Source of the DNA: a virus
Virus record (IMG/VR): IMGVR_UViG_3300030450_003421
Location: 1 to 25,119 of that record
Length of the DNA stretch: 25,119 nt
Reading direction: 5' to 3' (one strand)
In this document: positions 1 to 13,130 of the stretch, piece by piece
How positions within the stretch are numbered: the first letter of the stretch is position 1
How the letters are laid out: each line of letters opens with the position of its first letter
The notes under the pieces: generated by a model
The model's database searches: none
Told to the model about the DNA's origin: nothing
What the model saw: the letters and a program-made list of their open reading frames with translations, nothing else
Translations under genes and position numbers: made by a program

Positions 1-64
1 TATAAATTTTAGCATTATTTGGATGCTGTATACGATCTATATGTTGAAATCTTTTCTTTTTCAT
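1..64 (-). CDS. Hypothetical protein, N-terminal fragment (runs off left edge)
   Basis: An ATG at 64-62 opens a frame that stays open for 21 codons to the window edge. The peptide starts MKKKRFQHIDRIQHPNNAKI and is basic. Its start overlaps the TAA of the tail hub gene by one base (TAATG). An excellent ribosome-binding site, GGAGGAGGTG, lies just upstream inside the last glycine codons of that gene. The overlap implies translational coupling to the tail genes, so this is probably another tail or late protein. The fragment is too short to assign a function. Confidence 0.7.
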   Translation of the reverse strand, partial: MKKKRFQHIDRIQHPNNAKIY

Positions 65-3000
65 TATATTTCACCTCCTCCTAAAATATAATTCACAATC
101 AAAACAAGGTCAGCTACATTAATTTCTTCATTTTGATTAATATCTCCAAGCTCTTGTATTATAGCAGCGGCTACAGGGTCATCAGCTGAAGATCCACCTA
201 GTAAATAATTTACAAAGATAACTATATCAATTGTATTTACAACTCCATCTTGATTAAGGTCTCCCATTGTTCCATTTGTTATTAATTCGTCAAGGTCTAT
301 ATCTTCGTCTTCTTGGCTTTCATAATGTTCGCTCCACCAGGCTGCATTTAAAATATTTGATAATGCAAGCAAATCTCCTGTTCCAATAATATTTGGGTAA
401 CCACCAATATCTGCTAATTTTTTTTGCTGCGAAGTTATATACTGATATTCATTATTTAAATATTTTTCCAGTATATTAAAATCTTCATAGTTTAATTGTC
501 CAAAATCTTCACCATCAGCTTTTTGAAAGTAAGTTCTTGATAAGCTGCCTGTGTAATGTGTAACATTTGATGTCAATGAGTGCATTTGAATACAAGTAAC
601 CTTAACTTTTTTAATAGACTTTTTTGTAGATGTTACCATAAAATATGGAAGTATAGTTTGACCATTCCTAGTATAAGACTCAGTATAATCTTGATTAAGT
701 ATTTTTAAATCACCTAAAACTTTGTTAAATCTAATTATATCTCCAGTTTCTAAATTAAAATATTTAAGAGGAAGATCCATTTCTATAACTACATGGACAT
801 TGCAATTTTGCAAATATAGAAAATTTCTTAAAGCTATAGCTGAAGCTTCATCTCGTATAAAATCACTTTCAAATTCCAGTACATTAGAGTCTCTTTCTAA
901 TCCATAAGATTTATATTGATACCCCTCTTCATATCCTGTCATATCATCAAATTCTTGAGTTCCTATCCAAGTATCTATAACTGAAGAAGCCATAATGCCA
1001 TCACCGTTTCCAAAAAAATCATATCCATCACAGTATCCTGTTTCCCTTTGGTATTTATCTGTAGCATAATCTTTTTTATATTTAACATTAACTAGTGTAT
1101 ATATATCTGTATTTAATGTTGTTGAAATTGCAAAATCTTGAACATCTTTACTTTCTATAAGCTGATCGTGTGAATTATATCCAGATTCAATTGGAACAAA
1201 TGAAAACTTATTATTATTTCCTCTGTAAACAGGAAAAAATGTTGAATTTGTAGCAATATCTTGCATTAATCTTTTAGCTTCTATTTTGTCTTTTACAGAA
1301 AAAGCATGAGATATATCACTATACTCTCTAACAGTTGACCAATTATTAATATCAACTACATTATAAGCATTTAATTCTTTTTCTAAAAAGTGATATATTA
1401 TATCCATTGGATTGCTTATTAAAGGGTAATTATCTGCTAAAATATCATTAGTATACTTATACCTTTCCTCTCCATTTGCATCAACATAAAAGTCATTAGG
1501 GTTATTTGCTCTTCCATTAATATCAATATAAAAATCAGAGTCAAAAACATTTTCAAACAATATATACTGCATTAATCCAATTGAATGAATTTTTGAATTA
1601 AGGTAAAGTGTTGAGAGCCATTCTTCCGAGAAAATACCACCTAAATCATCATGCCTACTTAATGTGTAATGCAAAGTTAAAGCATTGAAGCTATCAGGTG
1701 ATGACCATGATGGAAACCAATATTTTGAGGGGTCAGAACCTTCTGATGCAAATAAATTTTCTTCATTGTTAGGATTATCTACAGAAGACCACATCCTTGA
1801 TGATGTTTGATTTAAAAGGCTATCCCCTCCTCCTCGTATTCCATATTTAAATCCTGATTCGTTACCATAAGAAGATTGTTCAAATAAATTCACAGATAAA
1901 CCAGGCATATAAGCAAAATTTATGCCTTCAAAAATTTGAACATCATCTTGTTCTATTGTGTTTATATCTGAAGCAGACAAAATTAAGTTAAAAAAAGCAT
2001 TGGTGCGTACATTACTAACATTTTCATTTTGATTAAAATCGCAAACTATTTTTCCAAACGCATAAGTTAATGTATCAAAAGCATCTGTTGCTCCCAAATT
2101 GTCAAATGGATAAGATATAATTACCGTTTCACCAAAATCACTACTTTCTATTCCAGAGTCTATAGCTAATTCAATATTACTTTCAGGTACTATATAAGAG
2201 TAGCTGTGATCTTCCCCACTTTCTTGCGTCTCTCCTGCAAGAGCGAACCATCCTCCTTTTGGAATTCGAGCATAGTATGGCATAATAGTGTAAGGAAGTA
2301 TTTCATTCATACTGTCAGGAACTACTGGCATTTTACCTTCTGTTGCATGACCATCGTATGTTATAGCTATTCCTGCAGGTAATCCTTCTGGAAAAAACAT
2401 AGCTCCTGATGTCTTGTTAAATGGATTTCTATGACCATAAAATCCATCTGGGGCAATGTTTCTAGAAGGTTTCCAAAAAGTAGAAGAAGGTATCGATCCG
2501 CTATTCATTGGTGTATTATCTAATGTAGATGAGCCTCCAGTAACTGTTGCTCTATAATTAGCTTGTAAAAAAGGACTTTGCCCCTCGTAATTATTGTAAG
2601 GATTGCGAAACCCTGAAGATGCTCCAAACACAGTATAACTATTGGTTTCTCTAATTGTTGGTTTTATTATTCCTGGAAGTTCAAACAAATATGGCTTACC
2701 AGTACCGTCATCATATATATTTAAAAATAAACCAGAACCCCCATCATCTAGCCAAGAACTATCTGTCTGTGCTATTGATGCCCATTGACCTATATATAAA
2801 TATTGTATATTATTAGCATTGTAAGATGTTTGCCAAGGCTCATGCTCGTCTTCTAATGTTTTTAATCTAAATCTGTATAAATATGCAGGATAAGAAGCAT
2901 GCTTAGTTCTTTCTATATTCACATAACCACTACCTTCCTCGTCAAAAAAATAAGTTTTAAAAGCATCAAATCTGTCTTGAGTTATACTTGGGTCATATTC

Positions 3001-4614
3001 ATCAAGCCAACTTTGGTCATATCCTTGTTCTTGTTGCATTATATATCTGCTAAAATTATACGCCCAATATTGATTAAATAAAGCTGCACTCATATATGGC
3101 TGCTGACAATATGCGTTTGGAAGTTCATCAGAGTTTATAGCATCAGGTTTGTTGCTTGTAATAAACAAATCTAAGCTTAATGGATCAGAGTTTGAATTAA
3201 AGCCATTATTTATTAAATATTCACCAGCACGATTAATTACATCAGCTGTTGAAGGTTGATTAAGATAGCAAGCATTTCTTGATGTTAATTGTTCTGCTGT
3301 ACTATGGGATAAGCACCAGGCAGTTACAAACCATTCAAAGATGGGGGTATACTCTTGATAGTCATCAAAAGATCTAGGATAAAAAACTCCTCTGTAAGAA
3401 GCTATGTTTATTACCTCTTCAAATGTCTGAAATCCAGCAATTTCAAATCCATCTTCGGATGTAAATGTTCCAACAAGCTCATCATCTGGTAAAATTGAAT
3501 GAGATGTTAAATAGTTGCCTTCTGTATTTTTTATTAAAAATTTATTTGTAGAGTCTGGGGTATCTATAGAAGCTTCCAATGCTAAAAAAGGAGAGTCATC
3601 ATATATTTTCATGCTATTGACAGGCACACTATTATCATATAAAATTGCATCTGAGTTGACGCTTGCAAAGTTTACAGCTTCATTTGGCATAGCAACTCTT
3701 ACACATTGCAGCATATTGTTTGCTGGAGGATTTTCAGGATGATCGACATAAAATTTCTTGCGAATTATAACTGAATGTTCGTCAATATCAAATTGGTCTG
3801 TTAACCTAAACCCGTAGCCGCCAGCCTCAGGAACTATATCTTGATTAATCTCTGGTAAAACATTAAAATAATTGTCTTTATATAAGTATAAAGGACTATA
3901 AATTTCGTTATAATTATTTATAGTCATTAATTGCGATCCAGATATTCCTATTCCATTTACATCAATAGGAGAACTTGCAGATAAAACATTATCACAAATA
4001 ATATGATACTTATTAATATTGTCAGCACTTTTAAAAATAACTGAAGGAGCTTTGTCAATAGACCCATATGCAATAGGTATAGGAACATCCTTATATTTTA
4101 AACTAAAAGCATCATCTGCAAATCCTAAATTTGCAATTGGAACTTCTTTATTTATAACGGATTCTGTTAAGTCTTCTAAAACTATCCTTACAGTATTTAT
4201 GTTTAATTTAAAATCATAAAAAACGCCTGTGTAAACCAATATTAAATCCTCAAAAACTCTACAAGATTGAGATTTTAAATAAACTTTAACCTCTCCTCCA
4301 GCATAATTAAGTAAAGAATTACTTAAATTACCCTCTCTTGAGTAATCACTTAGGCTTATTGTTAAATTTGAAATTTTAAAGTTTCTTGATTTAAGATCTA
4401 TAGACTCATTTATAGAGTTTATTTTAAGAGCATAGTCTTTAAACTCTACAACTTCACCAGTCTCCTCTACCTTAATAACTTCTTTTATGGTCGATATATA
4501 AATATTTTCATGAAGGGAAGCATTTTTAGGTTTTATAACAACTACAGGATATATACTCGTATGATTACTTTCTATATCATTTTTAAATTTAATATTTTGA
4601 GTTAAATCAAGCAC
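64..4614 (-). CDS. Large tail hub / tail-tip protein with C-terminal dockerin-like domain
   Basis: This 1516-residue protein directly follows the tape measure gene, where siphophages encode the tail hub and host-recognition protein. The start is GTG at 4614-4612, overlapping the tape measure TAG by one base (TAGTG). The N-terminal ~200 residues look like a hub beta-domain, including a surface-like IPIAYGSID segment. Near residues 1280-1330 a stretch containing YFNLETGDIIRFNKV matches the 'xxGDxI' style of gpJ or gp27-like hub domains. The central ~800 residues are rich in Tyr, Asn, Ser and Trp and were not recognised; they may form a receptor-binding or carbohydrate-binding insertion. The last 66 residues hold two EF-hand/dockerin-type repeats, listed separately. 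The hub role rests mainly on position and size; the length is unusually large for a protein without obvious internal repeats. Confidence 0.75.
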   Translation of the reverse strand: MLDLTQNIKFKNDIESNHTSIYPVVVIKPKNASLHENIYISTIKEVIKVEETGEVVEFKDYALKINSINESIDLKSRNFKISNLTISLSDYSREGNLSNSLLNYAGGEVKVYLKSQSCRVFEDLILVYTGVFYDFKLNINTVRIVLEDLTESVINKEVPIANLGFADDAFSLKYKDVPIPIAYGSIDKAPSVIFKSADNINKYHIICDNVLSASSPIDVNGIGISGSQLMTINNYNEIYSPLYLYKDNYFNVLPEINQDIVPEAGGYGFRLTDQFDIDEHSVIIRKKFYVDHPENPPANNMLQCVRVAMPNEAVNFASVNSDAILYDNSVPVNSMKIYDDSPFLALEASIDTPDSTNKFLIKNTEGNYLTSHSILPDDELVGTFTSEDGFEIAGFQTFEEVINIASYRGVFYPRSFDDYQEYTPIFEWFVTAWCLSHSTAEQLTSRNACYLNQPSTADVINRAGEYLINNGFNSNSDPLSLDLFITSNKPDAINSDELPNAYCQQPYMSAALFNQYWAYNFSRYIMQQEQGYDQSWLDEYDPSITQDRFDAFKTYFFDEEGSGYVNIERTKHASYPAYLYRFRLKTLEDEHEPWQTSYNANNIQYLYIGQWASIAQTDSSWLDDGGSGLFLNIYDDGTGKPYLFELPGIIKPTIRETNSYTVFGASSGFRNPYNNYEGQSPFLQANYRATVTGGSSTLDNTPMNSGSIPSSTFWKPSRNIAPDGFYGHRNPFNKTSGAMFFPEGLPAGIAITYDGHATEGKMPVVPDSMNEILPYTIMPYYARIPKGGWFALAGETQESGEDHSYSYIVPESNIELAIDSGIESSDFGETVIISYPFDNLGATDAFDTLTYAFGKIVCDFNQNENVSNVRTNAFFNLILSASDINTIEQDDVQIFEGINFAYMPGLSVNLFEQSSYGNESGFKYGIRGGGDSLLNQTSSRMWSSVDNPNNEENLFASEGSDPSKYWFPSWSSPDSFNALTLHYTLSRHDDLGGIFSEEWLSTLYLNSKIHSIGLMQYILFENVFDSDFYIDINGRANNPNDFYVDANGEERYKYTNDILADNYPLISNPMDIIYHFLEKELNAYNVVDINNWSTVREYSDISHAFSVKDKIEAKRLMQDIATNSTFFPVYRGNNNKFSFVPIESGYNSHDQLIESKDVQDFAISTTLNTDIYTLVNVKYKKDYATDKYQRETGYCDGYDFFGNGDGIMASSVIDTWIGTQEFDDMTGYEEGYQYKSYGLERDSNVLEFESDFIRDEASAIALRNFLYLQNCNVHVVIEMDLPLKYFNLETGDIIRFNKVLGDLKILNQDYTESYTRNGQTILPYFMVTSTKKSIKKVKVTCIQMHSLTSNVTHYTGSLSRTYFQKADGEDFGQLNYEDFNILEKYLNNEYQYITSQQKKLADIGGYPNIIGTGDLLALSNILNAAWWSEHYESQEDEDIDLDELITNGTMGDLNQDGVVNTIDIVIFVNYLLGGSSADDPVAAAIIQELGDINQNEEINVADLVLIVNYILGGGEI
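67..264 (-). other. Dockerin type I-like / EF-hand calcium-binding domain within the tail hub
   Basis: Residues 1451-1516 of the hub contain two ~23-residue repeats. The first reads GDLNQDGVVNTIDIVIFVNY and the second GDINQNEEINVADLVLIVNY; each is followed by (L/I)LGG. The first matches the dockerin consensus GDxNxDGxxNxxDxxxxxxY closely, with calcium-ligand positions D, N, D, N and D. In the second the third ligand is Asn and the usual Gly is Glu, so it may bind calcium more weakly. The repeats are separated by ~16 residues rich in Ala and Asp. In cellulosomes such domains bind cohesins; in bacteria and archaea similar pairs also act as calcium-stabilised termini. Which applies here is unknown. 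Confidence 0.8.
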
Positions 4615-7073
4615 TAACCAATTCCAATGTCAGCACCCCTTCGGATAGCTTGTTTAATTTTTGGAATTGCTTCTTCTGTTATAAACTCTTCTGATAACAC
4701 ATTTCCAGAAAAGGAAATATTAACAGAAGCTTGCTCACCGCCTTGATTAATTCTATTGGAAGTTTCAATTCCTACAGTATCCCCAACAAGTCCTCCATTT
4801 CTGTATCTTCCTTGATCAACGCCTGCTCTAATATTGTCTATTAGTCCCTTCCCAGCAAAGCCAAATCGCCACCCCTCACGACTTGTTTCACTTATATCAG
4901 TTGTTAGATTGTTGATTTTTTCCATATTTTCAATTCCAAGCCTAGCAACTGCTTCTCTCCTCATTACAAATTCACCTCTTTCTGCCTCAATCATAGTTCC
5001 GCCTTGCTCATGCCTATTTCCCCCAACAACACCACCATATCTCATAGTAGGAGGCTGCTGTGCATTTATTGTAGCTACCTGAGCAAGACCATTAGCAATA
5101 ATCATTGGAATCATCCACCAGAAAGAAGGATTACCAGCCTCAGCCACTCCTTTAGCTGTAGCCATTACAGCTTCACCTTTTTGTAGTAACTGTTTGTTCT
5201 TGAATTGTTTTTTAATCTCTTCATTAGCAGCTTTTGTTTCTTCTTCTTTTTGTGTTTTAAACTGTTTAGTAACTGCTTCTTCCATCCTTTGCTTTGATAT
5301 ATCTGTAGCCCTTTTATATGCCCATGTATTCCTTATTCTATCAAGCTCTCTTTCCTCTGCCTCATCTATAATTTCTATTCTAGCGTCTGCTAATGCTCTT
5401 TCTTGCTCAATATTTGAGTCGAAAAGCTCTTTTAGTGCTTGTACTTGATCTTTAATAAATTTATTTCTTAGTTTTACTGCTTCTGCCATTTCTTTTTCAA
5501 GTTTTTTGCCACTTTCTAAAGAATCATAGTAACCATCTATTTCCACAGCTCTTTCTTCTAAAAGATCTCTGTCTTCCTTGCTTAATTTATTTAATTCATT
5601 TCCAAATTTTAATTCTAATTTTTGCAAAGTAGTTAATTTTTTTAGCTTTCTAATCTGTTTTCCAGTTGCTTTTTCTCTGCCTAGTATATCTTTTGTAGTA
5701 AGTTTTTCTAAGCTTGCAGATAGTTGAAGTGTATGTAGTTGCTTATCAAGAGTCTTTATGTATTCATTTGCAGACTCATCAAGTTTTTCTTGAGCTATTA
5801 ACTGATTGTTCATTATTGTTTCATTATTTTTTTGAGCTTCTACATATTTATTAACCCAAGCTGTACTTTCTTCGAAATTGCTTGCTTTCGCAAATTGCAA
5901 TGCTTTTTTTGTCATTATATCTAAATCTTCTTGTTTAGTAAAAGATTTAAGGCTTTCCCCAGTATCTACAAATTCTTGCCTAATGTTGGTCATCAGCTTT
6001 TTCATGGTAAACTCAGTATTAACTACACTATCCTCTATATTATCTATAGCTTCTCGTGTTAACACCCAAGTCTTATCATTAAATATCATATCTGAAAAGT
6101 TTGTCCAATGCTTAGCAACTAATCCTATACGCTCTCCTATTTTAGGGAAAAATCCTAATGTTTTTTCAGCAATTATAGCTAGACCATTAAGAATTCCACC
6201 TATTGCAGCCAGCGTTGGTTGAAGAAGCTCTCCTGTATGCCTTCCAGCATCACCCAAATTATTTAGAGCCTTAGTCCATTGATTGCTTCCATAAGTTCCT
6301 CTCAATGCAGCTTTAGCAGCTCCACCAAACTCTCTGTTTAATTCTTTAAATATTACATTTTGAGCAGATATTATATCACCTTGTTCTTGGAACTGTTTAA
6401 TCATTTTAACTTGAGTAGCACTAAATGAAACCCCAATTCTTCGTAAGGCAGTATATCCTTTAACTGGGTCGTTTATAGCTTTGCCTATCTGTATAGTTGC
6501 CTGATTTAAATCTTGACCAAATACAGCAGAAAGGTCTAAAGCAGCTAGTGAAGCTTTTTCAAATTGAGATCCTACTATATTTGTAAATGTTAAAAGCCTT
6601 GCTTGCATTTCCATTATTACAGTATTTGCTACTGCAAAAGATTGCTGATAAGAATTAGCCATATTTTCAAGTTGTAAGGCTGATTTTCCTGCTGCCATAC
6701 CAGTTGAGCTTAATATAGCATTAATCTTACCCTGTAGTCCTATAAATTTATTATATTGTTTGACTAAAGCTCCAATGGCTTTTGATACTACTCCAAAGGC
6801 AAAAGCAACAATAAGCATCCTAGATCTCATTTTAGACATAGTTCTGCCAAACTTAGATAGAATGTCATCTCCTTTTTCTGCATTTCTACTAAACTTACGA
6901 AAAGATTCTCCGTATTCTTTATTTGCTTTAGCACCATCTTCAGTATTCTTGTTAGCTTCAATCTGTCTTGCAGCAAGTCTATTCATTGCCTTAGATAAAG
7001 AATTTAATTGAGCAGTTAACTTAGGAGCTCCTTTTCCTGAAAATTCAATCGTTAATTGTTCTACAGTAGCCAT
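4614..7073 (-). CDS. Tail tape measure protein
   Basis: This 819-residue protein would fix tail length during assembly and is expected to pass through the tube during DNA ejection. The N-terminus is Lys/Ala/Asn-rich helix. A hydrophobic segment (MLIVAFAFGVVSKAIGALV) lies near residues 85-105 and a second (SFWWMIPMIIANGLAQ) near 650-665. The region around 370-640 is strongly helical and charged. Residues ~677-723 carry the Gly-rich signature common near the C-end of tape measure proteins: GGVVGGNRHEQGGTMIEAE followed by RGEFVMRREAVARLG. It follows the chaperone pair (TAGATG junction, no gap) and precedes the tail hub, the standard siphophage order. By the rule of thumb of ~1.5 angstrom per residue, the tail would be roughly 120 nm. 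Confidence 0.92.
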   Translation of the reverse strand: MATVEQLTIEFSGKGAPKLTAQLNSLSKAMNRLAARQIEANKNTEDGAKANKEYGESFRKFSRNAEKGDDILSKFGRTMSKMRSRMLIVAFAFGVVSKAIGALVKQYNKFIGLQGKINAILSSTGMAAGKSALQLENMANSYQQSFAVANTVIMEMQARLLTFTNIVGSQFEKASLAALDLSAVFGQDLNQATIQIGKAINDPVKGYTALRRIGVSFSATQVKMIKQFQEQGDIISAQNVIFKELNREFGGAAKAALRGTYGSNQWTKALNNLGDAGRHTGELLQPTLAAIGGILNGLAIIAEKTLGFFPKIGERIGLVAKHWTNFSDMIFNDKTWVLTREAIDNIEDSVVNTEFTMKKLMTNIRQEFVDTGESLKSFTKQEDLDIMTKKALQFAKASNFEESTAWVNKYVEAQKNNETIMNNQLIAQEKLDESANEYIKTLDKQLHTLQLSASLEKLTTKDILGREKATGKQIRKLKKLTTLQKLELKFGNELNKLSKEDRDLLEERAVEIDGYYDSLESGKKLEKEMAEAVKLRNKFIKDQVQALKELFDSNIEQERALADARIEIIDEAEERELDRIRNTWAYKRATDISKQRMEEAVTKQFKTQKEEETKAANEEIKKQFKNKQLLQKGEAVMATAKGVAEAGNPSFWWMIPMIIANGLAQVATINAQQPPTMRYGGVVGGNRHEQGGTMIEAERGEFVMRREAVARLGIENMEKINNLTTDISETSREGWRFGFAGKGLIDNIRAGVDQGRYRNGGLVGDTVGIETSNRINQGGEQASVNISFSGNVLSEEFITEEAIPKIKQAIRRGADIGIG

Positions 7074-9474: not shown

Positions 9475-10722
9475 TTATCTTCTTGTCATCCTTACTGAAT
9501 TGATAGCAGAATTATCTACTTCTTCTTGCCATCCTGCTACTTCTATTTCCCATTCATTGGTTGCAGTAGCTACAGAAGTTTTACTCTCTCCTCCGAATCT
9601 TATTTGTAATCCACCTGCTAGAGTTTGGTAATCTCCATTAATTTTTTCTGCAGTAACAACTTGATTCCCCTGTTGATTACCTAGCTTATCTCCATCTTTG
9701 ACCCACACAGAGTAAGTAGCTGTTCCATCCATTGCTCCACCAGCTACTATTAAAACCCTAATAAGGTCAAATGAACCTGACCATCTTCCTCTTGTGTCTA
9801 CAGGTCTTATACTTCCTGAGGTATATGATACATCTCTTATAATTCCTTTAGAAGAATCTCCTGTTGTTTGCCATGATAGGGCTGCAGAACCTTTATTTAA
9901 AGCATCTATGTTACCCATTGCATCTTCCATTAAAGCATTTGCTATTTCTGATGTTGGGTCATGACTTCTAATAAGGAATGTAGCTGCTATAAGTGCAGTT
10001 GTTCTTACTATTATATAATCAAAGTTACCTTCTTTATCTTTTAATTGTTCTTTAGGTAGATTAGGATCAAGTTTAGCATCTAAGTATCTACTAGCATTAG
10101 CTGTAATTCTTGTAATTAAAGTAGAGAAATCTTCCCCTGCCTCTAAAAGAAAGTCATTTGGGTCTCCTGAATTAGCCACTAATAATAATAAATCCAAATC
10201 ATCATCATATACAAAAGTTAAACAATCTAACCCTCCTGATGTAACATTTCCAAGGTCGCTACTTTCGTTTATAATTATATAAACATTTGCATCATCAGCA
10301 TGTGCTACTGCTGAAGTATCAAATAAACCTCTATTTGATAGAGTGGTTGTTATTGCATTGGTAGAAACAGCAGTAACTCTTATATATTCACTATCTATTT
10401 TAATAATATCATCTATTTCAACTGAATGTCCAGCATCTAGATTAAATTCTACAGTAGCATCTGTCATTGCTCCATTTAATACTCCATGAATAGTTGAACC
10501 ACCTCCTGTAAAAGTTGTTTTAAGTACTTTAGCTCCATCAAAAAACAAAGAGCTAACTAGTCCTGTGTTATGTGCATGGTAAATGTCAATAGTATCTCCA
10601 CTATCAAAACCATCTATTCCTATCTGCCAACCATATAAAGCTCTTTTACTATCAAATGAATCTACTTGAGGAAATACATCCTTTAATTGTCTATGTGTAC
10701 AATATGTTGGTGCTGTTGCCAT
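9475..10722 (-). CDS. Head-tail connector (gp6-like adaptor) with inserted beta domain
   Basis: A 415-residue protein. The N-terminus YCTHRQLKDVFPQVDSFDSK resembles connector/adaptor proteins that bind below the portal. A helical region at residues ~198-275 (SRYLDAKLDPNLPKEQLK, then IVRTTALIAATFLIRS and ANALMEDAMGNIDAL) looks like the gp6-type helical bundle. Between them, residues ~98-155 form a beta insertion with the pattern IDDIIKIDSEYIRVTAV, then NRG and VAHADDANV. A close relative of this insertion occurs in the 516-residue neighbour. The C-terminal ~130 residues are beta-rich (RWSGSFDLIRVLIVAGGA, WEIEVAGWQEE) and were not recognised. The start is ATG at 10722, overlapping the stop of an 18-codon ORF. 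The protein probably forms the neck ring between portal and tail. Confidence 0.6.
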   Translation of the reverse strand: MATAPTYCTHRQLKDVFPQVDSFDSKRALYGWQIGIDGFDSGDTIDIYHAHNTGLVSSLFFDGAKVLKTTFTGGGSTIHGVLNGAMTDATVEFNLDAGHSVEIDDIIKIDSEYIRVTAVSTNAITTTLSNRGLFDTSAVAHADDANVYIIINESSDLGNVTSGGLDCLTFVYDDDLDLLLLVANSGDPNDFLLEAGEDFSTLITRITANASRYLDAKLDPNLPKEQLKDKEGNFDYIIVRTTALIAATFLIRSHDPTSEIANALMEDAMGNIDALNKGSAALSWQTTGDSSKGIIRDVSYTSGSIRPVDTRGRWSGSFDLIRVLIVAGGAMDGTATYSVWVKDGDKLGNQQGNQVVTAEKINGDYQTLAGGLQIRFGGESKTSVATATNEWEIEVAGWQEEVDNSAINSVRMTRR

Positions 10723-10779: not shown

Positions 10780-12330
10780 TTAGTTCATTGCTATTACTTT
10801 AATTTTAGCATTTAATTTTTGATTTGTACTTCTACCCCCTACTGCTGTTATATGATTATGACCATTAGTAGTAGAAACATTAGTACCACCACTATGTGCA
10901 GATAAATATGTTGCACTTACAACAAATTCGGCATTAGCTGCAGCAGTAAAGTCTATAGCTCCAGTTTCATAGTTTATACTTCCAGTTCCTGCTCCTATAA
11001 AATTACCATTTCCATCATCATACATAACAGATCCTATATTAGGTCTCTCTTCATAAGTTACTCTATCAAATAAAGTATCATCAGGTAGTTCGGCAGCTAT
11101 TGCAGTTTGAACACTTCCTACTGCAGGTATTCTTCCTACACCCCATATATCAGTATCACCACCACTAGAATCACCTAAAGCTATAGCTGAAGTTGATAAG
11201 TGAGAACCTGATGTAAATCTTACATCCCCATTAACTATCCCAACAGTTACCTTTTTTCCAAAAAGATTTGAACTTGTAGTGTAGTATTGAGTATCAAAAA
11301 CATCTTGTATTTTACTTAAAACTCCATTCTTGCCACCAAAATTAGTATTACTTGAGTCAGTAGTAAGATCTAAATCATAAGCACTACCTCCATCAACTGT
11401 TATAGTAAACTGATAAGCTGTAGATGCAGCAAGCCCTGTATTGGTGTTAGCTGTAATTCCAGATAAACCTAATTCTTGATAACCTGAATTATAAAATTTA
11501 AAACACACAGATCCTGGAACAATTCCATCTGAAATAACATTGCTAGTCCTTCCATATCCAAAAAAGTTCATAGCTTTAAACTTGCCATCTTTATTTGTTT
11601 GTGCAACTGTATGTTTATTATAATTATTATAAGCATTAAAAAATGGAAATCTAACATCTGCGTCATCTGCATGCGTTGCTGCTGTTGATCCATGAGTGCC
11701 TCTTATTACAGTTAATGTACTATTAGCTAGGTCAGCACCTGTGCCTATTGCAGTTACTTCCATTATTTCATTATCTACACGAATTAAATCACCTCTTTTA
11801 AAGAATTTAGAATGACCGTCTTCTAAATTAATAGTTGTTAAAGTTGCATCAGAAGCAATAGTTGCACTTGTTGCAGTATCTACATCCGCAGTAGAGTCTG
11901 TATATTCATTAGAATTAGGAGCAACATTAGATATTGAAGTAGCATTAGCCCCTGAAGCATCAGCATTATATCCAATTAACCTTCCATTTGGCAGGTAAAT
12001 AAAATCTCCAGCAGGCAAAAGCATAGTGGCATACCTTGTTACAGTAGCTCCACCTCCTGTGTCTACAGAATTTGCATCATCAGTATTAGAGTTATTCTTC
12101 CACTCTTGGTATGTAAACTGTATTTCTGCACCTACATTACTTTCGTTATAAATACATAATGCTTTTATATTACTAACTGTATTCGCCCCTTTAGTTGTGC
12201 TTACTGTTAGTAAATTAATAAACCCATCAGTATTATCAACTTCTTGCATGTTTTCAAATTTAGTATTAAAAACTTTTTGTCTTGCAAAAGTGTTGCCATT
12301 AATTGTTAAATTTATATTCCCTGTCGCCAT
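10780..12330 (-). CDS. Virion structural protein with flagellin-IN-like segment
   Basis: A 516-residue Thr/Ser/Asn/Gly-rich beta protein starting MATGNINLTINGNTFARQKV, with AGGAG 6 bases before the ATG. Residues ~170-235 hold a module shared with the connector: GDLIRVDNEIMEVTAI, then VIRGTHGSTAATHADDADV. Residues ~299-405 contain YQFTITVDGGSAYDLDL, a KIQDVFDTQ helix, then VTVGIVNGDVRFTSGS. That order (short strand pair, helix, 'g-v-r-f-t-S' strand) is reminiscent of the flagellin/hook 'IN' motif. The C-terminal part (GSINYETGAIDFTAA and VVSATYLSA) is beta-sandwich-like. It is probably a head or neck decoration protein or an upper-tail fibre protein. The precise role is unknown. Confidence 0.55.
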   Translation of the reverse strand: MATGNINLTINGNTFARQKVFNTKFENMQEVDNTDGFINLLTVSTTKGANTVSNIKALCIYNESNVGAEIQFTYQEWKNNSNTDDANSVDTGGGATVTRYATMLLPAGDFIYLPNGRLIGYNADASGANATSISNVAPNSNEYTDSTADVDTATSATIASDATLTTINLEDGHSKFFKRGDLIRVDNEIMEVTAIGTGADLANSTLTVIRGTHGSTAATHADDADVRFPFFNAYNNYNKHTVAQTNKDGKFKAMNFFGYGRTSNVISDGIVPGSVCFKFYNSGYQELGLSGITANTNTGLAASTAYQFTITVDGGSAYDLDLTTDSSNTNFGGKNGVLSKIQDVFDTQYYTTSSNLFGKKVTVGIVNGDVRFTSGSHLSTSAIALGDSSGGDTDIWGVGRIPAVGSVQTAIAAELPDDTLFDRVTYEERPNIGSVMYDDGNGNFIGAGTGSINYETGAIDFTAAANAEFVVSATYLSAHSGGTNVSTTNGHNHITAVGGRSTNQKLNAKIKVIAMN

Positions 12331-12341
12331 TCTAACTCCTT

Positions 12342-13130
12342 TTACCTTAAATGATATTTGATTGTTGCATTAATTGTGAAGTCTGAATTTACTGAATCAG
12401 ACTCAAAGAAAAATAATAAAGCTTTTCCTGCATCTACATCTGCGGTTGATATAGTCATTTGATTATAATACGATTGCTCATATCCAAGACCAGACACAGC
12501 AGAAGAATAAGCAATAACAGCTCCACTAGATAAATCTCCGCCTGTTGAGGAGTTTCCTGTATCTATTGTGTAACTCATTAAATGAGTTCTAGCGGTATCT
12601 GAACCTGCAGCATCTCCCCCATGAAACCATAATATTCTATCAATAGTTATATTATCTGGAACATACCATAAAACTCCAACCATATCATCTGCATTATCTG
12701 ATATAGTAAATGATGTTGCAGGATCTGTACTTGTTCCTCCCCCAACAAGTGCTTGTGTTTGTATGCTATTAAAAGGAACTGCATAGTGTGTATTTGCAGA
12801 CGCTCCAGCCCAAACACTATTTCCACTACCTACTCCAAAATATGCGTATTGCGTATTTACAGTATGTTGCCCTATGCCAGCCTTCACTAAATCATTAGTA
12901 GAGTCTACAGTAACAAGAGCATTACCACTCGCATCATATATAACAGTATTAGTGGTAGTGTCAACAGAAGGCTGTACTTTTAAGTTTCTTTGAGATAGAT
13001 ATAATGGAGTAGTATCACCGTCACCACAAGTAATCTGTTTAATAGAAACACCTAATCCTGTATTACTATTACTTGTATGAAGAATATCTTTATAAACATC
13101 CTTAATACTATTCCCTGTAAAACTAGCCAT
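12342..13130 (-). CDS. Putative virion surface / fibre protein
   Basis: A 262-residue protein rich in Ser, Thr, Gly, Asp and Asn with few charged helices. After an N-terminal MASFTGNSIKDVYKDILHTS segment it is nearly all predicted beta strand. A C-terminal domain contains VGVLWYVPDNITIDRILWFH and ALLFFFESDSVNSDFTINAT, consistent with a jelly-roll or carbohydrate-binding fold. It sits between the fibre-like 488-residue protein and the 516-residue structural protein. The ATG overlaps the TAA of a 45-codon gene (TAATG), indicating coupled expression. It could be a head decoration or an exposed receptor-binding protein. No specific family was recognised. Confidence 0.5.
   Translation of the reverse strand: MASFTGNSIKDVYKDILHTSNSNTGLGVSIKQITCGDGDTTPLYLSQRNLKVQPSVDTTTNTVIYDASGNALVTVDSTNDLVKAGIGQHTVNTQYAYFGVGSGNSVWAGASANTHYAVPFNSIQTQALVGGGTSTDPATSFTISDNADDMVGVLWYVPDNITIDRILWFHGGDAAGSDTARTHLMSYTIDTGNSSTGGDLSSGAVIAYSSAVSGLGYEQSYYNQMTISTADVDAGKALLFFFESDSVNSDFTINATIKYHLR

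Follow-up and report, generated by a model that had tools for sequence, protein, structure and literature searches.

A predicted cohesin-fold protein encoded beside a dockerin-ending presumed tail protein in a lineage of uncultured phages

The Hub Gene and Its Neighbours

The window, the whole stretch of DNA analysed here, is a viral record 25,119 bases long. It contains the gene of a 1516-residue protein that ends in a dockerin, together with a tape-measure gene upstream and the first codons of a further gene, referred to as X, downstream (Table 1). The 1516-residue protein is called the tail hub because its gene directly follows the tape-measure gene, which is the sole basis of the name. As to family, no PHROG or Pfam entry names the protein, and searches of PHROG, Pfam and NCBIfam returned zero tail-family matches for it. 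Two of its 16 aligned relatives touch phrog_3355, a family of unknown function. The neighbouring tape-measure gene (4614-7073) suggests that the protein belongs to the tail module.

Two adjoining structural proteins of the window, encoded at 9478-10722 and 10783-12330, have in common a stretch of the form D-x-E-[YI]-[IM]-x-V-T-A-[VI], after which comes HADDA-[ND]-V. Of the pair, the protein encoded at 9478-10722 touches phrog_1101, a tail protein family. Among the relatives, each designated by a locus number, the hub ORF carrying the dockerin has only ~810-900 residues in L104, L123, L128, L134, L136 and L138. In L128 the hub is split into two genes, its N-terminal part having an ORF of its own (614 aa) further upstream, and the same is perhaps the case in L104, L123, L134, L136 and L138.

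Table 1. Features of the hub region, with positions in the window
Feature	Position	Strand	Details
Start of gene X	2..64	(-)	21 codons, MKKKRFQHIDRIQHPNNAKIY; cut by the window end; one-base overlap with the hub stop codon (TAATG)
Presumed tail hub / tail-tip protein ending in a dockerin	64..4614	(-)	ORF of 1516 aa, GTG start; tape-measure gene immediately before it
Dockerin type I module (Doc2)	82..264	(-)	Residues 1451-1511; PF00404 E 6.3e-9, above the cut-off; matched in 16/16 aligned relatives
Second calcium loop	109..144	(-)	Residues 1491-1502, DINQNEEINVAD; D1491 and D1502 invariant in the 16-hub alignment A6
First calcium loop	226..261	(-)	Residues 1452-1463, DLNQDGVVNTID; all ligands canonical; D1452, D1456 and D1463 the same in all 16 aligned hubs
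Decayed dockerin-like module (Doc1)	349..504	(-)	Residues 1371-1422; recognisable by comparison with relatives, e.g. DITNDGSIDQFDLNLLEIIF in L004
Tail tape-measure protein gene, upstream neighbour of the hub	4614..7073	(-)	PF06791 E 1.9e-10; phrog_27166 E 4.1e-28

The C-Terminal Dockerin

Dockerins are calcium-binding plugs and cohesins are their sockets, and bacteria build cellulosomes with them. The Pfam profile Dockerin_1 (PF00404) matches residues 1451-1511 of the hub, the module termed Doc2, over profile positions 2-57 of 57. With the profile covered almost end to end, an E-value of 6.3e-9 and a score of 36.3 bits against the curated cut-off of 22.9 bits, the match is not a chance one. 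Dockerins of the PDB were matched at E 3e-4 when the single hub sequence was the query and at 7e-9 when the hub alignment was used. A search at the DNA level placed both dockerin repeats individually above the Pfam cut-off. The closing residues of the hub are GTMGDLNQDGVVNTIDIVIFVNYLLGGSSADDPVAAAIIQELGDINQNEEINVADLVLIVNYILGGGEI. By every test that could be run, this C-terminus is a true dockerin and a member of the family, and the profile match confirms the original prediction that a dockerin-type repeat pair ends the 1516-residue hub.

Both calcium loops, DLNQDGVVNTID and DINQNEEINVAD, carry D or N at ligand positions 1, 3, 5 and 12. In the second repeat (D-I-N-Q-N-E-E-I-N-V-A-D), all four still have oxygen-bearing side chains (D, N, N, D). 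The departures of this repeat are an E in place of the conformational G at position 6 and an N, not D, at position 5; this is residue 1495 of the hub, which is D in at least 90% of the relatives. In the nearest relative, L003, the second loop is canonical (DINEDGTVNVFD). The repeat had been described as degenerate at two ligand positions, leaving one strong and one weak site; given the ligands that it retains and the canonical loop of L003, both statements were too strong. The ligand aspartates 1452, 1456, 1463, 1491 and 1502 are invariant in an alignment of 16 hubs, most of them 22-33% identical to the window protein, with the near relative L003 at 78%. From these residues, the dockerin of the hub would be expected to bind calcium. 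The other listed proteins of the window contain no match to the calcium-loop pattern.

A decayed dockerin-like module, Doc1, lies further upstream in the hub. The corresponding stretch of L004, YLTSKQKISADITNDGSIDQFDLNLLEIIF, shows the origin of the window's decayed copy. A Doc1 profile built in this analysis, with the window sequence among its members, matches 30 of the 87 distinct relatives with a complete C-terminus. The top Foldseek match to the structural model of L004 is the double-dockerin 8x39. The first account of the hub C-terminus was right about the Doc2 repeats but missed both Doc1 (1371-1422) and the gene overlapping the hub stop codon.

Gene X and Gene Y

The 21 residues of X that lie in the window are identical to the start of the complete X gene of L003 (11858-12502). 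Across the relatives, X has a size of ~130-290 residues. At its junction with the hub, the reading frames overlap, abut or are separated by a gap of a few bases. The protein has a beta-rich N-terminal part, then a short motif, either acidic or rich in tryptophan, and a basic tail, and the C-terminal tripeptide is almost always GGY, GKY or GSY in both main groups of relatives (in L003, for example, at 12494-12502). The X proteins of these two groups form one family (hhalign probability 96.8%). Against Pfam, PDB sequences and PHROGs no usable match was obtained for X, with a weak touch to phrog_14004 (unknown function), and a sequence profile of X returned chance matches alone from the PDB sequences.

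A further gene, Y, adjoins X downstream, and the order hub-X-Y is fixed. The strand switch follows Y or a second Y: the gene, recognised by MAYQ.VGTPRFYID...REVW, is duplicated in L003 (12505-15143) and L009 (15162-18418). Gene Y had no match among the families searched.

Predicted Fold of X

In several phages the hub stop and the X start are in frame, and their natural DNA, with one residue in place of the stop, encodes dockerin and X on one chain. This chain is a modelling device only, and the dockerin was present on it in both AlphaFold2 models, which were made from relatives: L048 (model 1) and L004 (model 2), a member of the distant group 1. Model 1, based on 57 sequences, has a pLDDT of ~90 for the dockerin and 91-97, mostly 92-97, for the X domain. 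X is predicted here as a nine-stranded sandwich with a short helix between strands 6 and 7. Cohesins are jelly-roll sandwiches with nine strands and a helix between strands 6 and 7 (PMC8063739).

In a Foldseek search of model 1 against the PDB the best five matches were cohesins, with a best E of 4.4e-5. With VIA-align, ranks 1-42 were all cohesins (Z 8.6-11.1), the best superposing at 2.6 A over 102 residues, and the best non-cohesin had a Z of 8.3. For X of model 2 the best matches were again cohesins, at Z ~9 with the nearest non-cohesin at 8.1, a margin of about one Z unit. The dockerin of model 2, with pLDDT mostly 77-90, aligned to 8x39 with a Z of 11.4 and 1.3 A over 61 residues. In BFVD, a set of models independent of this analysis, unnamed viral proteins of 140-268 aa matched model 1 with E-values down to 1e-10; judging by length, they would be X proteins on their own.

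No cohesin match was visible at the level of sequence. The Pfam cohesin profile (PF00963) had no match among 47 phage records (E <= 1) or 21 X proteins (E <= 10). An hhalign comparison of X with one cohesin found no similarity, and one of 86 X proteins with 44 cohesin domains, taken from Acetivibrio relatives plus one CipA module, reached a probability of 0.2%. Since the Pfam and profile-profile tests for cohesin failed, X is filed as a predicted cohesin-fold protein and not as a proven cohesin. Conservation was no different between the back sheet of X and the sheet that would bind the dockerin (strands 8-3-6-5); strand 6 is hydrophobic at most positions. Because X is ~45 residues shorter than classical cohesins, the beta-flaps that interrupt strands 4 and 8 of cohesins may be missing from it.

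This lack of sequence similarity to cohesins would also be expected if X were a generic immunoglobulin-like or carbohydrate-binding sandwich whose cohesin likeness is a coincidence of fold. Carbohydrate-binding and YcnI folds do reach Z ~8, and the presence of dockerin and X on one chain could in principle bias the prediction. Such a coincidence is nevertheless improbable: the best cohesins lead the non-cohesins by almost 3 Z units in model 1, cohesins lead for X in model 2 as well, and the order of strands and helix in X is that of cohesins. The unnamed BFVD proteins of X length, modelled independently, match model 1 too.

Dockerin and X across the Relatives

The hub as query retrieved 52 viral loci. 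With the hub alignment the yield was 78 loci, many not retrieved before, and two X queries contributed a further ~20. Among the 87 distinct relatives with a complete C-terminus, Doc2 forms the end of the hub in 81, Doc1 alone is present in five and neither in one. Searched in six frames, 139 phage sequences (1.43 Mb, a partly redundant set) contain 117 dockerin ORFs, and all of them are hubs. The next gene after the hub belongs to family X in 85 of 85 relatives with enough downstream sequence, and no locus has more than one copy of X. Searches begun from X, independently of the hub, return dockerin hubs. Since every relative has X, co-occurrence offers no test by joint loss.

The hubs of L096, L097, L100, L133 and L062 keep Doc1 and lack Doc2, with X still next. 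Four of these five have an unrelated segment in the place of Doc2, and the L062 hub simply stops. The hub of L125 (7329-9275) has no dockerin at all and ends in two WNLIS-type repeats; X is kept in this phage and has an additional N-terminal region of ~100 residues.

No natural fusion of hub and X was present among the collected loci. Outside the window, the unnamed viral protein BFVD A0A516LNX3 (1389 aa) aligns over 174 columns to the joint dockerin and X model, and it might be such a fusion. No match to the hub, dockerin or X proteins was found among the phages of INPHARED. A search for a host or provirus with the hub alignment, covering bacterial and archaeal genomes (GTDB species genomes), gave no relative.

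The hub dockerin had been predicted, among other uses, to recruit a separately encoded protein. Circumstantial support for this is strong, with X, a family of predicted cohesin fold, next to the hub in 85 of 85 relatives with enough downstream sequence; the two proteins would bind each other. The nearly constant place of the dockerin at the extreme C-terminus would also fit a module that, stabilised by calcium, caps the hub structurally, either lacking a partner or touching another virion protein, and X is retained beside the five hubs without Doc2, four of which have a different segment there. Those five hubs nevertheless retain the upstream dockerin-like module, and a cap would leave the cohesin fold of the adjoining gene unexplained, making this reading an unlikely one. 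For the family, burial of the repeats within the core of the hub is unlikely. The C-terminal segment of L004 was modelled as a self-standing dockerin fold, and that of L048 was predicted with high confidence, in models that comprise the C-terminal segment plus X.

The covariation of dockerin and X is no greater than the shared ancestry of the hubs explains (partial correlation ~0.03); their identities correlate only to the extent that both follow hub identity. In L035/L053, a pair of near-identical phages, the dockerins are 55% identical and the X proteins 98% identical. Exchange of the dockerin beside a constant X would fit a permissive socket, and would also fit a dockerin under other selection. 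In cellulosomes, a single cohesin can take many divergent dockerins.

The dockerins, at the exposed end of the hub, diverge faster than its remainder and look swapped among close relatives, as is common for receptor-binding parts. The dockerin could on these grounds be a receptor-binding tip for cohesin modules on the host surface, with X an unrelated tail-tip protein. Some variation of the dockerin is expected in any case, as one cohesin takes many divergent dockerins, and a receptor tip would not predict a cohesin-fold neighbour in all relatives whose sequence extends far enough downstream. Little probability is given to it here.

Proposed Mechanism

Pairing of the hub dockerin with X is the most economical reading: each of these alternatives covers part of the data, and none explains why a dockerin is so constantly accompanied by a cohesin-fold neighbour. 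The dockerin of the hub probably binds the cohesin-fold X, anchoring it to the tail tip with the help of calcium. We infer the binding itself, its place in the virion, its dependence on calcium, a part for it in adsorption and the roles of the X tail and of Y.

Hub and X would be translated from their overlapping or abutting genes, and calcium would bring about the folding of the dockerin. Its two similar helices could then dock onto one face of the X sandwich. The socket would be the cohesin-fold N-terminal domain of X, and docking would fix X at the distal end of the tail. The basic and probably unfolded C-terminal tail of X, whose last three residues are nearly always of the G-x-Y type, could secure the following protein, for example Y. 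Gene Y closes the operon, and its product is a candidate receptor-binding protein.

Comparison with Known Systems

The hub dockerin resembles type I dockerins (PF00404), such as those of Clostridium thermocellum xylanase Y and Doc435, in having two loop-helix calcium repeats within ~60 residues at the C-terminus, and the L004 model aligns to type I dockerins with VIA Z 9.7-11.4. Type I dockerins are carried by enzymes, whereas the phage dockerin is part of a tail protein. In C. thermocellum the recognition positions of the dockerin are a Ser/Thr pair; in the phage dockerins they are mostly N-[VI]-[LVTSIQ]-D. The hubs of group 1 are similar to the double-dockerin 8x39 (Clo1313_0689) in their tandem dockerins, with the difference that the first phage module is without the first calcium loop and the copy in the window is also without most of the second.

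X is like the cohesins (PF00963; 6kgf, 4dh2, CipA, Archaeoglobus 2xdh) in its predicted nine-stranded sandwich and the position of the helix between strands 6 and 7. Cohesins have ~140 residues in comparison to ~95 for the X domain, which has no detectable sequence similarity to them. X also differs from cohesins in occurring as one copy per phage and in having a basic tail, modelled with low confidence, after the domain. The plan of the cellulosome, in which a scaffoldin with several cohesins takes several dockerin enzymes, is not that of these phages, where each locus has at most one X and one plug-bearing protein.

Non-cellulosomal cohesin-dockerin pairs have been described in archaea (Archaeoglobus, ANME) and in bacteria (PMC9012536). 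The phage pair resembles those of Archaeoglobus and ANME in its use outside cellulose breakdown, and is unlike them in being encoded by neighbouring genes of a phage tail operon. No phage-encoded cohesin-dockerin pair was found in a literature search that was thin on subscription papers, and for dockerins in phage tails the same literature held incidental mentions alone.

Significance

Cohesin-dockerin pairs, known from cellulosomes and cells, are among the strongest protein-protein joints. Rupture forces above 120 pN have been reported for them (quoted in PMC6030884). If the reading proposed here is true, the phage pair would be the first joint of this kind in a virion. Two gene families without a name in current databases would gain a testable function, and engineering would gain a compact cohesin scaffold as well as a joint that calcium can switch. 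The locus also illustrates how a single visible domain can point to a hidden partner next door that is missed by sequence search.

For the phages themselves, it seems on balance likely that a widespread uncultured lineage builds its tail tip with a calcium-dependent cohesin-dockerin pair of its own, the cohesin having diverged beyond sequence detection. In some of them the dockerin appears to have been exchanged while the socket stayed constant, which would make the dockerin an interchangeable connector for tail-tip parts. With both halves encoded in adjacent tail genes, such a pair would, if true, represent a new assembly route for the adsorption end of a virion.
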